Shown here one piece after another: positions 3,364 to 33,985 of a stretch of DNA of 58,451 nt. Source of the DNA: Acidobacteriota bacterium. GTDB lineage: Bacteria > Acidobacteriota > Thermoanaerobaculia > Multivoradales > JAHEKO01. Below the pieces are notes generated by a model. It was not told the origin of the DNA. It worked only from the letters and a program-made list of their open reading frames with translations, and ran no database searches. Each line of letters starts with the position of its first letter. The first letter of the stretch is position 1. The position numbers and the translations under genes were made by a program. The DNA is taken from assembly GCA_022561975.1 (NCBI GenBank), contig JADFQD010000004.1, forward strand, positions 1 to 58,451, in the 5' to 3' direction.

Positions 3364-4725
3364 TCAGGCGATTTGGTCGAGGGCACGCTCGAGCCGGGTC
3401 AAGCCGTCGTCGGCCTCGGATATTTGTAAATTGAGTGGCGGCCGAAAGCGAATTGCCCGGGGACCGCCTCGCAATCCGAGAAAGTCGTTCGCGATCATGT
3501 TCTCGAGCAGTGCCTCGCGCTGCTCTTCGGTGGGCAGATCAAACGCCACGAACGCGCCACGGCCGCGGACGTTCGAAATGAGGCTCGGCCTCGAGGCGGC
3601 CAGCCGGCGCAAACCCTCCAGGAGGTGGTCTCCAAGAGTCACGGTGTTTGCCAGGAGGTCTTCTTCCTCGATGATTTCGATGTAGCGCTGGCTGCGCACC
3701 ATGTCGACCAGGTTGCCGCCCCAGGTCGAGTTGATCCTGCCCGATACCTTGAAGACCGAGTCGATCTCGTCGATGCGGGCGTTGGCGCAAATGCCGCAGA
3801 CTTGGCTTTTCTTGCCAAATGCGAAGACGTCGGGCTCGACCCCGAAGTGTTCGAAGCACCACCAGCGGCCGGTGGTTCCGAACCCGGTCTGGACCTCGTC
3901 GAAGATCAGCAGGAACTCGGCCTCGTCGGCAAGTTCACGAAGCGCTTGGAAATACTCGCGCCTGAAGTGGTTGTCGCCGCCTTCGCCTTGAATCGGCTCG
4001 AGGATGAGTCCCGCGATGTCGTTTGGGTGATCGACGAGCGCCTGCTTGATTTGAGTGATCGATTCTCTTTCGGCCGCCTCGACGTTCTCGATGCCTCGGA
4101 GCGGGGCATCGGTCAGCGGGAAGTGCAGCTTCGGGTTGGTGATCCTGGGCCAGTCGAACTGGGGGTAGTAATCGGTCTTGACAGGGTCGGTGTTGGTCAT
4201 CGACATGGTGTAGCCGCTACGGCCGTGGAAGGCCTCGCGAAGATGAATCACGCGATGTCCGTTGGCGCTGCGTCCAGCGGCCATATTCTTGCGGACCTTC
4301 CAGTCGAAAGCGGTCTTGAGCGCGTTCTCGACCGCCAAGGCCCCTCCGGAGATAAAGAACATGCGCTCCGAGAGCGAGGCCGGTACCGTGCGGGAGAAGG
4401 CCTCGACGAAGTCCGCCATGTATTCGGTGTAGAAATCCGAATTGGATGGCTTGTTCAGTGCCGAGGGCAGGATGCGTTGGGCGAAATCGGGGTCGCTCAG
4501 CCTCGGGTGGTTGTAGCCAAGGGGCGTGGTGGCGAAGGACATGAAGAAGTCGAGAATCTCGCGGCCGCTCGACTGATCGACGAGATACGGGCCGTGGCTG
4601 CGCACGAGGTCCATGACGTAGGGGAGGCCATCTGCGAGGATGTGACGGGAGAGGCGCTCATGCACTGCGCTTGCCGGAGATGAGACTTCGTTTGCTGAGC
4701 CGGGGCTTGGTTCGACGAGCGTCAT
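3364..4725 (-). CDS. lat: L-lysine 6-transaminase (class III PLP aminotransferase)
   Basis: Class III aminotransferase: FISGGALAVENALKTAFDWK, EPIQGEGGDNHFR, LIFDEVQTGFGTTGRWW, FGKKSQVCGI. Confidence 0.85.
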   Translation of the reverse strand: MTLVEPSPGSANEVSSPASAVHERLSRHILADGLPYVMDLVRSHGPYLVDQSSGREILDFFMSFATTPLGYNHPRLSDPDFAQRILPSALNKPSNSDFYTEYMADFVEAFSRTVPASLSERMFFISGGALAVENALKTAFDWKVRKNMAAGRSANGHRVIHLREAFHGRSGYTMSMTNTDPVKTDYYPQFDWPRITNPKLHFPLTDAPLRGIENVEAAERESITQIKQALVDHPNDIAGLILEPIQGEGGDNHFRREYFQALRELADEAEFLLIFDEVQTGFGTTGRWWCFEHFGVEPDVFAFGKKSQVCGICANARIDEIDSVFKVSGRINSTWGGNLVDMVRSQRYIEIIEEEDLLANTVTLGDHLLEGLRRLAASRPSLISNVRGRGAFVAFDLPTEEQREALLENMIANDFLGLRGGPRAIRFRPPLNLQISEADDGLTRLERALDQIA

Positions 4726-4851
4726 CGTTTCTCCGTCGCCATAGGTTGGCTGTGAACGCTATGTTTCGAGCTGTAAACGGTGTACCGGATATGTCGAGTC
4801 CGGGATCTCGGAGCCAATAGGCGGAATGCTAGCAGCGGCGTCTTGGCCGGG

Positions 4852-6075
4852 TCAATCGGAATCCAGGGCTGAGTCTCGGGCGGAATCCAGGGCTGAGCCT
4901 TGGGCGGAGTCCCGGGCTGGGTTCCGGGATGAGTCTAGGGTTTTTCGGCGAGCTTCGAGGCGGCGGACGGGCTCGCCCGCGGTCGCGGTTCGGTTGCGCC
5001 CGGTTTCTTTGGCGACGTACATGGCGGAGTCGGCCAGCCGGAGTAGGGTCGACTTGGTGCGTTCGACCGACTCGGTATCCTGCAGGTGCCGATGGAGTGT
5101 GGCCACGCCGACCGAGCAGGTGAGCCCGGTCAGATGAATCGGATCAGGCTGAATCTCGCCCGGCTTGTCGCAGAAGGTCGTGGTCACTATCTGGTGGCGC
5201 AAGTCCTCCGCGACCTTGATGGCCTCCAGCAGATCCCGCTCTGGAAGCGCGACCACGAATTCGTCGCCGCCATAGCGGGCGGCGATCGCGTTTTCGAACT
5301 GCATCGCCGTCTTGATCAGTATTCCGACTTCGCGCAGTACCTGGCTACCTGCCAGGTGTCCATGCGAGTCATTGACCCGCTTGAAGAAGTCGAGGTCCAT
5401 GAACAGTAGGGCCAGGTCCAAGTTTTCGCGACGGCACTTGGCAATCGACTTCGAAAGCGCGATGTGCAGGTAGCGGTCGTTGTAGAGACCGGTCAGATTG
5501 TCGCGCTTGGCGATTTCCTGAGCCTGGCGACCGTCGAGAACATTCTGGATCGAGATTGAAATGTACTCGGCAAAGATCTCGAGGAGATGAACGTCGCGCT
5601 CGCTGTAATAACCGGTCTCCGATCGGTTCACGAGTTCGAGCACACCGCATACTTCTTGCTCGATTCGAACCGGAATGGCCACCAGCGACTCGGCCGGATA
5701 GTCGTTCGCTTGGTCGAACATCAGGTGGTGCAGCTTGTCGGTGGAGAGATCCCGGGTGACGTAGGATGTTCCGGTCAAGTACACATGACCCGCGATTCCC
5801 TTGTTGGCCGGAATAGTCTGCCGGAGCAACTCCCGGGCTTTGTCGCCGAAGGTGGCGATGAAGGTCAGAGAATTTTCTTCGCGCTCCTTGTTTTTCTTCA
5901 GGGGGTTGTCGAGGAGGAGGGAGCCGGCCAGCGAGGGCACGAACTCGTTGGCCTTGCGGAGTACGGCCGCCAGATTCTCGGCGAGGCTCATGTCGAGAGC
6001 AAACGAGGGAATGGCTCGCCGGCGCTCGAGAAAAACCTCGAGATCCTGGGGCTCCAGACAGTGGTACTCAGTCAC
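4852..6075 (-). CDS. GAF-domain diguanylate cyclase (GGDEF)
   Basis: GAF-like N-terminus (IPANKGIAGHVYLTG...VCGVLELVNR) and DNLTGLYNDRYL...FMDLDFFKRVNDSHGH...RYGGDEFVVAL. Confidence 0.9.
   Translation of the reverse strand: MTEYHCLEPQDLEVFLERRRAIPSFALDMSLAENLAAVLRKANEFVPSLAGSLLLDNPLKKNKEREENSLTFIATFGDKARELLRQTIPANKGIAGHVYLTGTSYVTRDLSTDKLHHLMFDQANDYPAESLVAIPVRIEQEVCGVLELVNRSETGYYSERDVHLLEIFAEYISISIQNVLDGRQAQEIAKRDNLTGLYNDRYLHIALSKSIAKCRRENLDLALLFMDLDFFKRVNDSHGHLAGSQVLREVGILIKTAMQFENAIAARYGGDEFVVALPERDLLEAIKVAEDLRHQIVTTTFCDKPGEIQPDPIHLTGLTCSVGVATLHRHLQDTESVERTKSTLLRLADSAMYVAKETGRNRTATAGEPVRRLEARRKTLDSSRNPARDSAQGSALDSARDSALDSD
4859..4940. repeat. 24-bp tandem repeat (about 3.3 copies) encoding the C-terminal tail of the GGDEF protein
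   Basis: gaatccagggctgagtctcgggcg / gaatccagggctgagccttgggcg / gagtcccgggctgggttccgggat / gagtct...; tail SRNPARDSAQGSALDSARDSALDSD. Confidence 0.8.
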
Positions 6076-27733: not shown

Positions 27734-29470
27734 ATGAGCAAACCAGCCTACTCGAAAAAGAAGACAGCCTTCGGGGCCGTCTTCGCTGTTCTTGGCCTGG
27801 CCCTGATTCTCCTGCTGCCGGCACCTACGCTGGCTCGCGAACGTTCTCAAAACGAGCCGGTCGAGAATGTGGAGAGCGTCATCGTCAAGGCCGCGAGCGT
27901 CGGGCACGCGGAGGTGCTCGTGCGCGAAGTAGGAGGTAGGGTCACCCATAAGCTCGGGATCATCAAAGCGGTCGCGGCCAACGTCACGGCGAAACAGCGC
28001 GCCGAGCTCGAAGCGATGAAGGGTGGGATCCGAATCCACGCCAACCACACCGCAACCCTGGACGGGAAGCCCACCAAGGGTGGTAACGGCCAGGTAGTCG
28101 AGACCTACTACCCGACTCATCTCGGCGCCGATCAGCTGCACATCGCTGGAATCTACGGCACCGGGGTAACCATAGCGGTTCTGGATTCAGGCGCGTTCGG
28201 CTCCGGCTCTGGCGGACTAAAACTGAACATCTCCGGATCCAACCGGGTGCTCGCCCACTACGATCCGGTCACCGACTACCTGCTCGAAGGCAAGTCTATG
28301 CCTGAAGACGAGTTCGGCCACGGCTCGCACGTGACCAGTGTCGCGGTTTCCAGCCGGCAGACCGAGACCGGCACCTTCAACGGCATGGCTCCCGACGCCG
28401 ATCTCGTGGTCGTTCAAGCCTTCGGCGCGACCGGGAGCTCGACCTACGCCGACGTTATCCGCGGTATCGACTGGGTGGTGACCAACAAGGACACCTACGG
28501 CATCCGAGTCCTCAACTGCTCCTTCTCCGCCGAGCCCCAGTCCTACTACTGGGACGATCCATTGAACCAGGCGGTGATGGAGGCCTGGCGCTCGGGTATC
28601 GTAGTGGTGGCCTCGGCCGGCAACCGCGGCCCGAGCGCGATGACCATCGGTGTGCCGGGGAACGTTCCCTACATTGTCACCGTCGGCGCCATGACCGACA
28701 ACTACACCCCGGCGGATGCCGCCGACGATTTCCTGGCGACGTTCTCCTCGGCCGGTCCGACGGTCGAGGGATTCGTCAAGCCGGAGATGGTGGCCCCCGG
28801 CGGCCACGTCAAGGCGGTCATGAAAGACACCGCCCGGATCGCCCTAGATCACCCCGAGTTCCACGACGGCGGCTACTACATGAATCTCTCCGGCACCTCG
28901 CAGGCCACGGCGTTCGTCACCGGTATCGTGGCCCTGATGCTCCAGCAGTCGCCCCAGCTGACGCCCGATGAGGTCAAGTACCGGTTGATGGATACGGCCC
29001 GCGTAGCGGTGGATCCCTCGACCGGCGGCCTTGCCTATGGTGTCTTTCAGCAGGGAGCTGGGCTGGTGAATGCCTACGATGCGGCGCACTCCCTGGCCAC
29101 GGGAACCGCCAACAGGGGTCTCGACATCGACGCCGACCTCGCAGGCACCCTGCGCTTCAAAGGCCCGGCCAATGCCTACCAAGAAGAGGACGGTAGATAC
29201 GTCTACTACGTAACCGACGGCAACGGCAATCTCCTGGGTGATGGCTTCCTGTGGAGTGACGGCTTCCTGTGGAGCGATGGTTTCCTGTGGAGCGACGGCT
29301 TTCTGTGGAGTGACGGTTTCCTGTGGAGCGACGGCTTTCTTTGGAGCGACGGGTTCCTCTGGAGCGATGGTTTCCTGTGGAGTGACGGTTTCCTGTGGAG
29401 CGATGGCTTCCTCTGGAGCGACCTCACCACCGAGGCCCTCTTCACCGAGAGCTGGATTCCCCAGGAGTGA
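27734..29470 (+). CDS. Secreted S8 (subtilisin-like) serine peptidase with I9-like propeptide and C-terminal (DGFLWS)10 repeats
   Basis: Catalytic motifs TIAVLDSGAFG (Asp), DEFGHGSHVTSVA (His), NLSGTSQATAFVTG (Ser); N-terminal signal. Confidence 0.93.
   Translation: MSKPAYSKKKTAFGAVFAVLGLALILLLPAPTLARERSQNEPVENVESVIVKAASVGHAEVLVREVGGRVTHKLGIIKAVAANVTAKQRAELEAMKGGIRIHANHTATLDGKPTKGGNGQVVETYYPTHLGADQLHIAGIYGTGVTIAVLDSGAFGSGSGGLKLNISGSNRVLAHYDPVTDYLLEGKSMPEDEFGHGSHVTSVAVSSRQTETGTFNGMAPDADLVVVQAFGATGSSTYADVIRGIDWVVTNKDTYGIRVLNCSFSAEPQSYYWDDPLNQAVMEAWRSGIVVVASAGNRGPSAMTIGVPGNVPYIVTVGAMTDNYTPADAADDFLATFSSAGPTVEGFVKPEMVAPGGHVKAVMKDTARIALDHPEFHDGGYYMNLSGTSQATAFVTGIVALMLQQSPQLTPDEVKYRLMDTARVAVDPSTGGLAYGVFQQGAGLVNAYDAAHSLATGTANRGLDIDADLAGTLRFKGPANAYQEEDGRYVYYVTDGNGNLLGDGFLWSDGFLWSDGFLWSDGFLWSDGFLWSDGFLWSDGFLWSDGFLWSDGFLWSDGFLWSDLTTEALFTESWIPQE
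29240..29419 (+). repeat. Ten tandem 18-bp units encoding DGFLWS
   Basis: 10 x 18 bp in frame; all nucleotide differences between units are synonymous. Confidence 0.97.
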
Positions 29471-29706: not shown

Positions 29707-31062
29707 TCATGATCTTCGGATCGAGCTGGCGCACCACGGGCAGCATTGCCAGAATCCGGGCAGCACCCCCCATCGACACTTTCGACAGGCGCTTTTCTCT
29801 CCTGGGATTTCCCAGCTCCGGCGCACCTTGCGCCGGCACCACGGGCAGTAGCGCATGAAGGGCATCAGGTCTTTTCGGGAACAGGACCGGTTGTCGCAAC
29901 GCGCGGTGTATCGTCGATCCGGATAGCTACGGTTGCCATGAATCTCGAAGCCCGGCCCGTAACACCAGGGGCAGTAGCGCCAGTCGAGCTTCATCCCCCG
30001 GTGACAGCGCGGGCACATGGCTGGGAAGGTGGTCCTGCCTCGGTGTTTTGCCCGGCCGGCGCGACACCAAGGACACGTTGTCATGGCCTCAGACACCGGC
30101 CCGTGGCACCGCGGGCAAGCATGGCGGGTTTCCAGTGCGCGGCCGTAATGTCTGATGAATTCACGCCGCTGGACCTCCGGCCAGACCGGGTCGGCGTTGG
30201 TGGCTCGGAGCTGCGAACCGTTTGCGGCGGCGCGATCGAGCGATCGTCGCCGGGCGCGGCGAAAGGCGGCCAGCATCTTTCCGGCGTCGGCAAAACGCCG
30301 TCGAGGCTCGAGGGAAATGGCCTTGGCCAATACTTCGGTCATGGGATCGCCGACCTTGCGGCGAAGTCTCCGATAGCCGGCCGGCGGCCAGGCAAAAGGC
30401 CACTCGGGGAGCTGGCCCGAGAGCATGCGGTAGATCAAGAGTCCGAGGGCGAAGACGTCCGATCTCGGTGAAGGTTTCCCCATCGCCTGTTCGGGGGCGA
30501 AATAGCCGAGGGTTCCGGACCCGGATGCTTGGACTGTCCGCATGGCTACTTTGGCGATGCCGAAGTCGGTAAGCCGCAAGAGGTCACCGCCAAAGAGAAT
30601 GAAGTTCTCGGGTTTGATGTCACAGTGGATGACCCCTTCCTGGTGCGCAAAAGCGACCGCCGACAGCGCCTGCTCGGCGAAATTGAGTGCCTTGGCGGTA
30701 GCAATTCGCCGCGTCAGGCGCTCACCCAGGGTCTCTTCTCCGAGGGCGGTTACCGCCACGAAGCGACCTTCGATGAAGTCCGCGTTCTTGAGCGACAGGA
30801 TGTGGGGATGGGCCAGGCGTGCGGCCAGGCGGGCCTCGCGATAGAAGTCATCGAGCACTTCAGGGGTGACCAGCGACGGGTGGGGTATTTTGAGCGCTAC
30901 CTTGACGCCCTCGATGGTGTCCTGGGCCGCGAAGACGGAGGCGAATCCGCCTTCCCCGAGGTGGCGCAGAATCTTGTACTTGCCCAACCTTTGGCCGCGA
31001 CGGAGACGCCGGCCGGCAGCTTGGAGATCAGAGATTTTGGGTCGATCGCGTGGATCGCGCAT
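29707..31062 (-). CDS. Ser/Thr protein kinase with C-terminal zinc-ribbon-like repeats
   Basis: ILRHLGEGGFASVFAAQD, VIHCDIKPENFILF, LTDFGIAK, YFAPEQAMG; C-terminus with repeated CPRC/CPWC pairs. Confidence 0.9.
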   Translation of the reverse strand: MRDPRDRPKISDLQAAGRRLRRGQRLGKYKILRHLGEGGFASVFAAQDTIEGVKVALKIPHPSLVTPEVLDDFYREARLAARLAHPHILSLKNADFIEGRFVAVTALGEETLGERLTRRIATAKALNFAEQALSAVAFAHQEGVIHCDIKPENFILFGGDLLRLTDFGIAKVAMRTVQASGSGTLGYFAPEQAMGKPSPRSDVFALGLLIYRMLSGQLPEWPFAWPPAGYRRLRRKVGDPMTEVLAKAISLEPRRRFADAGKMLAAFRRARRRSLDRAAANGSQLRATNADPVWPEVQRREFIRHYGRALETRHACPRCHGPVSEAMTTCPWCRAGRAKHRGRTTFPAMCPRCHRGMKLDWRYCPWCYGPGFEIHGNRSYPDRRYTARCDNRSCSRKDLMPFMRYCPWCRRKVRRSWEIPGEKSACRKCRWGVLPGFWQCCPWCASSIRRS

Positions 31063-33793: not shown

Positions 33794-33985
33794 CTCTCGC
33801 AAGACCAGTTGGGAGGGGACACGAAGGAAGGTGCGTCCCGTACGACAGGGGGGGTAGCAACTCGTGCAAAACCAGTTGGGAGGGGACACCAAGGAAGGTG
33901 CGTCCCGTACGGCAGGGGCGGCAGCAACTCGTGAAGAACCAGTTGGGAGGGGACACCAAGGAATGGTGTCCCCGATAGAATGCCG
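33794..33985. repeat. 67-bp direct repeat (about 2.7 copies) with terminal GGGGACACC...GGTGTCCCC hairpin
   Basis: accagttgggaggggacac begins at 33804, 33871 and 33938 (period 67); last copy has a perfect 9-bp stem ggggacacc-aaggaat-ggtgtcccc. Confidence 0.85.

Follow-up and report, generated by a model that had tools for sequence, protein, structure and literature searches.

The S8 subtilase encoded in the window (the whole 58,451-nucleotide stretch of Acidobacteriota DNA that was analysed) ends in an array of tryptophan-containing hexapeptides. It belongs to a subfamily whose genes are often paired with genes for Reg_prop/Y_Y_Y β-propeller sensors, and the peptide of its array is kept by purifying selection. 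An odd repeat is thus turned into a recognizable module, a tailed protease gene that often stands just before a β-propeller sensor gene, in Acidobacteriota and in at least one gammaproteobacterial MAG. The protease and the sensor may form one signalling module, in which, we infer, the tail would be a multivalent aromatic anchor or docking element. Taken whole, this reading is put forward tentatively, at somewhat less than an even chance.

The features of the gene are listed in Table 1. The PF00082 profile matched residues 142-427 with an E value of 6e-47 and 160.7 bits, against a curated cut-off of 21.8. The Asp/His/Ser triad that an earlier note on this DNA had pointed out is kept; D151, H196 and S389, and also N297, showed no variation among 57 aligned homologues. 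In the AF2 model pLDDT mostly exceeds 90 in the propeptide and in the catalytic domain, and it is about 30 at residues 503-572. By Foldseek the closest solved structure is pro-Tk-SP (3afg). At the extreme C-terminus the columns W574, V575 and E578 are at least 90% conserved in the subfamily alignment, and the window protein has I575. The window protein is a predicted secreted, propeptide-bearing member of family S8.

Table 1. Features of the W-tailed S8 gene, in window coordinates
Feature	Position	Strand	Basis or remark
S8 subtilase gene, 578 aa	27734..29470	+	ATG-start ORF; PF00082 profile match
Predicted signal peptide: KKK n-region, hydrophobic core, A-x-A-like site at about residue 35	27734..27838	+	Sequence reading; AF2 helix 14-26
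Propeptide-like domain, residues 46-108	27869..28057	+	AF2 pLDDT mostly >90; Foldseek matches to pro-subtilisins including 3afg, 3whi and 2e1p
S8 catalytic domain	28157..29014	+	PF00082 profile; invariant alignment columns
D151	28184-28186	+	Triad Asp
H196	28319-28321	+	Triad His
N297	28622-28624	+	Oxyanion Asn
S389	28898-28900	+	Triad Ser
β-hairpin preceding the array, residues 479-494	29168..29215	+	AF2 strands 479-483 and 489-494
W-hexad array, ten perfect DGFLWS units, residues 503-562	29240..29419	+	Translation; Tandem Repeats Finder
C-terminal cap DLTTEALFTESWIPQE, 16 residues	29420..29467	+	W-[VI]-x-x-E end nearly invariant across the subfamily

The ten perfect DGFLWS units described in the earlier note were confirmed in frame with the protease. 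Tandem Repeats Finder reported a period of 18, 10 copies and 83% DNA matches. As the note had also stated, the units differ only synonymously: five of the 18 positions vary, and each is a third position. The array requires at least seven changes by parsimony and has 17 differences from its consensus. The synonymous share expected without constraint is 19-29%, and the chance that seven of seven changes are synonymous is below 1e-3. The array has a pS of 0.78 and a pN of 0. Codons for the same residue in different units are identical at a frequency of 0.50, compared with 0.48 for independent draws from the codon usage of the genome's S8 genes, which places the array at synonymous saturation. The regions preceding the arrays in the window gene and its paralogue differ with a pS of 0.35. 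High pS, zero pN and near-random codons together indicate that the units have long been separated while the peptide stayed unchanged. An alternative reading of the saturation is that the scrambled codons are themselves selected to stabilise the repeat. Such arrays provide a good test case for how a peptide repeat can remain perfect over DNA scrambled to saturation.

The same statistics were determined for 97 homologous arrays of at least three units. The median pS is 0.45 and the median pN 0.12, and in no array is pS zero. In most arrays the units are still somewhat alike in DNA, at 0.69 against an expected 0.53, showing that unit turnover occurs; the window array is one of 21 out of 95 at or near synonymous saturation. 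The purifying selection on the peptide that the earlier note had proposed is thus seen in the window and across the homologues. Passive DNA slippage, producing an array that has no selected role, would fit the wide spread in unit number and the local DNA duplicates that persist in some arrays, for example three GACGGGTTCCTGTGGAGC-like units in paralogue L002. It is, however, hardly credible against a pN well under pS in most arrays, a nonzero pS in all 97 and the saturation of the window array. Recent slippage or assembly duplication was rejected in view of the saturation and the independent arrays. The assembly artefact that the note had named as a possible refutation is unlikely, because a non-identical second array is present in an 84%-identical paralogue on a different contig and homologous arrays are found in dozens more genomes. 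In the L013 array (G001) and the arrays of G009, TCN and AGY serine codons are mixed at one repeat position over a constant peptide, which hints at exchange between arrays or at repeated two-step codon switches.

About 110 homologous S8 genes, mostly from Acidobacteriota, have D-G-[aromatic/aliphatic]-x-W-s arrays of 2 to more than 30 units, so that the other S8 peptidases with W-S-D tails mentioned in the earlier note prove to be a large family. The hosts are Thermoanaerobaculia, other Acidobacteriota, Gammaproteobacteria and Chloroflexota, nearly all of them MAGs, and arrays are present in nearly all of the homologues found. The average unit across arrays reads D(80%)-G(63%)/A(21%)-F/Y/I/N/V-L/I/A/P/V-W-S/N/G/T/A, with W necessarily at 100% because the units were located by W spacing. 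That spacing is six residues in the great majority and seven in the Chloroflexota homologues. The note had regarded amino acid variation among homologues with the same catalytic domain as evidence against its proposal. Such variation exists (DGFAWN, DGYIWP, GGYMWS, DANPWT and others), and the proposal is to that extent refuted. What is under selection is therefore not the particular peptide DGFLWS but a W at every sixth position, combined with an Asp/Gly turn and a partner residue that is aromatic or aliphatic. In one homologue (L153, G011:C170) the array is out of frame with the catalytic domain, by a real frameshift or a sequencing indel.

The unit "dialect" is common to a genus and changes from lineage to lineage. 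At 35-45% catalytic identity, unit similarity is 0.55 within a genome, 0.60 within a genus, 0.44 within a family and 0.30 between families. A genome-specific dialect was rejected, as pairs from one genome score about the same as pairs from one genus once catalytic divergence is matched; the dialect is a genus-level property. The paralogue on contig C19 of the window's genome encodes DGFLWS with TCN serine codons and the window copy with AGY codons. Unit sharing is thus not simply recent DNA copying.

A loose D-xxx-W DNA pattern was present in 41 of 297 Acidobacteriota genomes and a reversed control pattern in none; in the subset of matches inspected, the arrays were in S8 genes in every case. 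The strict array pattern had no match in viral_contigs. In the plasmid collection all S8 matches were below 60% identity and none spanned 80% of the protein; matches to the tail alone were repeats 43-60% identical to it in differently annotated proteins. No corresponding Pfam or NCBIfam entry was found. No description of the W-tails or of the sensor pairing was found in the open-access literature searched. The subtilisin-like protease with a periodic repeat in PMC6344855 was set aside as unrelated, its period being 32 aa. The W-hexad-tailed subfamily is defined in the present analysis by a C-terminal array with W at every sixth residue, an adjacent Reg_prop sensor gene being frequent but no part of the definition; the enzyme itself is of the known family S8.

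The AF2 model of the window tail has no confident fold, with a pLDDT of about 30. No lag-2 or lag-3 signal was found in the arrays. The stacked fibre suggested in the earlier note is not supported, given these two results and the shift in spacing from six to seven in Chloroflexota. Stacking as an eighteen-residue solenoid was rejected for want of any lag-3 excess of like with like. A regular β-solenoid with three hexads per turn, acting as a spacer or assembly module, would be hinted at weakly by the model of a 32-unit homologue, in which EEE--- recurs with a six-residue period from residue 1 to residue 72 (pLDDT 50-70). Bactofilin and MinC β-helices are also among its best Foldseek matches. 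But the E value of those matches is 0.39 at best, pLDDT is below 50 in the window tail and in the remainder of the 32-unit model, like residues show no lag-3 excess, the period is seven in Chloroflexota and homologue L028 has only two units. Such a solenoid appears improbable. In a sequence search of solved chains none matched the W-hexad tail, and the fold matches were to the enzyme part. Neither the window tail nor the long arrays matched the Reg_prop profile PF07494. Derivation of the tail from Reg_prop repeats was rejected, there being no profile match and no covariation with the motif of the adjacent propeller.

Reg_prop proteins recurred when the flanks of the homologues were compared. 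The pairing with sensor genes was then counted in 60 regions around W-tailed S8 genes, where a Reg_prop gene was an ORF carrying three or more G-x-[LIVMF]-W-x-G-[TS] motifs. In 27 regions such a gene is present at a distance of up to about 5 kb; 19 of these have it immediately after the protease gene and in the same orientation, and the reading frames of protease and downstream sensor often overlap or abut. Untailed S8 regions of the same genomes had none in 20 (Fisher p = 6e-5, uncorrected for phylogeny; regions of one genome are only partly independent, and the untailed S8 genes belong to other branches than the tailed ones). These control regions were picked by PF00082 coordinates; a simple S8 motif missed the S8 ORF in some, and none of the 20 has a W array. 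Some 16 genomes from many genera show the pairing, as do a gammaproteobacterial MAG (L018) and locus L019. It is present in two distinct S8 branches, one with C-termini ending W-V-x-Q-E and one with others. Among relative genomes, the 20 that contain the subfamily all contain Reg_prop, and the subfamily is absent from each of the 13 in which Reg_prop is missing (p = 0.002, with no correction for phylogeny). For roughly half of the tailed genes the DNA examined contains no sensor, and some of these regions stop at a contig end.

A Pfam scan of 14 sensor ORFs showed Reg_prop in all 14; 11 of them also have Y_Y_Y and a histidine kinase, receiver or GGDEF domain. The output domains are HisKA/HATPase_c/receiver, GGDEF or sigma-54; the L018 sensor has a sigma-54 output and the L019 sensor GGDEF. 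At L209 and L219 a receiver-PAS-GGDEF-EAL gene lies between protease and sensor. At L185, L254 and L257 the Reg_prop ORF beside the W-tailed S8 gene ends after the propeller, with no output domain; these are possibly secreted propellers or broken genes. In the marine gammaproteobacterium HTCC2080 (L027), a named non-MAG record, an untailed S8 homologue at 4001-5104 has a Reg_prop-like ORF downstream from about 6180. The tail is thus not required for pairing, and this locus is a natural point of comparison for what the tail does.

The window copy has no sensor gene near its locus. Upstream is Ddl, and downstream, convergent with the protease gene, is a Ser/Thr protein kinase with C-terminal zinc ribbon motifs (29707-31062, minus strand). 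None of the window neighbours tested recurs at high identity at the other loci compared; kinase matches also occur near S8 loci L015, L042 and L045. A 67-bp tandem repeat of 2.5 copies with 92% matches lies at 33799-33968, between NlpC/P60 and arginine deiminase genes. Three Reg_prop genes were found in the window's genome, and one of them directly follows the closest paralogue of the protease (L185, G000:C210; 84% identity). A third W-tailed S8 copy (L112, G000:C19:32500-37500; array at about G000:C19:35430-35560) looks broken, a pseudogene or an assembly error. The sequence of its catalytic domain changes from one frame to another near C19:34672/34680, and a stop codon immediately precedes the array, whose own reading frame remains open.

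If protease and sensor form one module, they would meet in the periplasm or at the cell surface. The tail would be a mostly extended, multivalent aromatic "sticker" holding the protease at the propeller sensor or at the cell surface, and the sensor would read out protease activity, processing state or peptide products. The window copy would be a duplicate without a sensor gene of its own, whether through loss or from the outset, and it may act with the paralogue's sensor, or freely. A more specific form, that the tail docks on the propeller as a multivalent ligand and that proteolysis switches the histidine kinase, c-di-GMP or sigma-54 output, is conceivable but unlikely. Direct docking is opposed by the untailed S8 gene near a Reg_prop-like gene in HTCC2080 and by units that do not track the propeller motif, and a plain surface anchor is therefore nearly as likely as the main reading.

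The tail could instead be adhesive in a general way: a disordered acidic chain, in which two of every six residues are aromatic, would hold a scavenging protease on the cell surface, in the biofilm matrix or on an insoluble substrate. The adjacent Reg_prop sensor would then only regulate the protease, as Bacteroides hybrid sensors do polysaccharide-use genes. The low pLDDT of the tail points this way, as do arrays where no sensor is seen, and a sticker-spacer chain could tolerate a period shifting from six to seven and 2 to more than 30 units. The Bacteroides hybrid two-component sensors with Reg_prop and Y_Y_Y domains recognise oligosaccharides as their signals (PMC3243724), which also agrees with it. 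Adhesion alone does not, however, explain unit sharing across diverged paralogues of one genus, and we regard it as possible, with some doubt. Finally, the repeats might be a multi-copy peptide signal, cut out by the protease itself and read by the sensor. Identical tandem hexapeptides in one gene, lineage-specific units and an adjacent sensor speak for released peptides; the units, however, have no spacer or recognition sequence between them, and no conserved peptide-modifying neighbour was seen in the flanks compared, leaving this idea very improbable.

Reg_prop sensors are numerous, and outside Bacteroides few inputs are known for them; a protease whose gene is linked to theirs is a concrete candidate. 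The known ligands of this sensor class are mainly sugars; the docking and proteolysis reading, if true, would give it a protease-gated input.

With peptidase S8 (PF00082), e.g. Tk-SP of Thermococcus kodakarensis (3afg), the protein shares the catalytic fold, the triad and the N-terminal propeptide; the tail sets it apart, matching no solved chain in sequence. The Pfam family LED_rpt (PF20854) weakly matched two long arrays of distant homologues (E 6e-6 and 0.0025), at 26.5 and 18.1 bits, well under the curated cut-off of 59 bits, and did not match the window tail. The Bacteroidetes hybrid two-component sensors have the same Reg_prop/Y_Y_Y domain order as the subfamily's neighbours, many with histidine kinase and receiver outputs (PMC3243724), a likeness that concerns the neighbour genes of the subfamily and not the window gene. 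Unlike the Bacteroides sensors, those described here have a W-tailed S8 protease as their neighbour, and GGDEF or sigma-54 outputs also occur.
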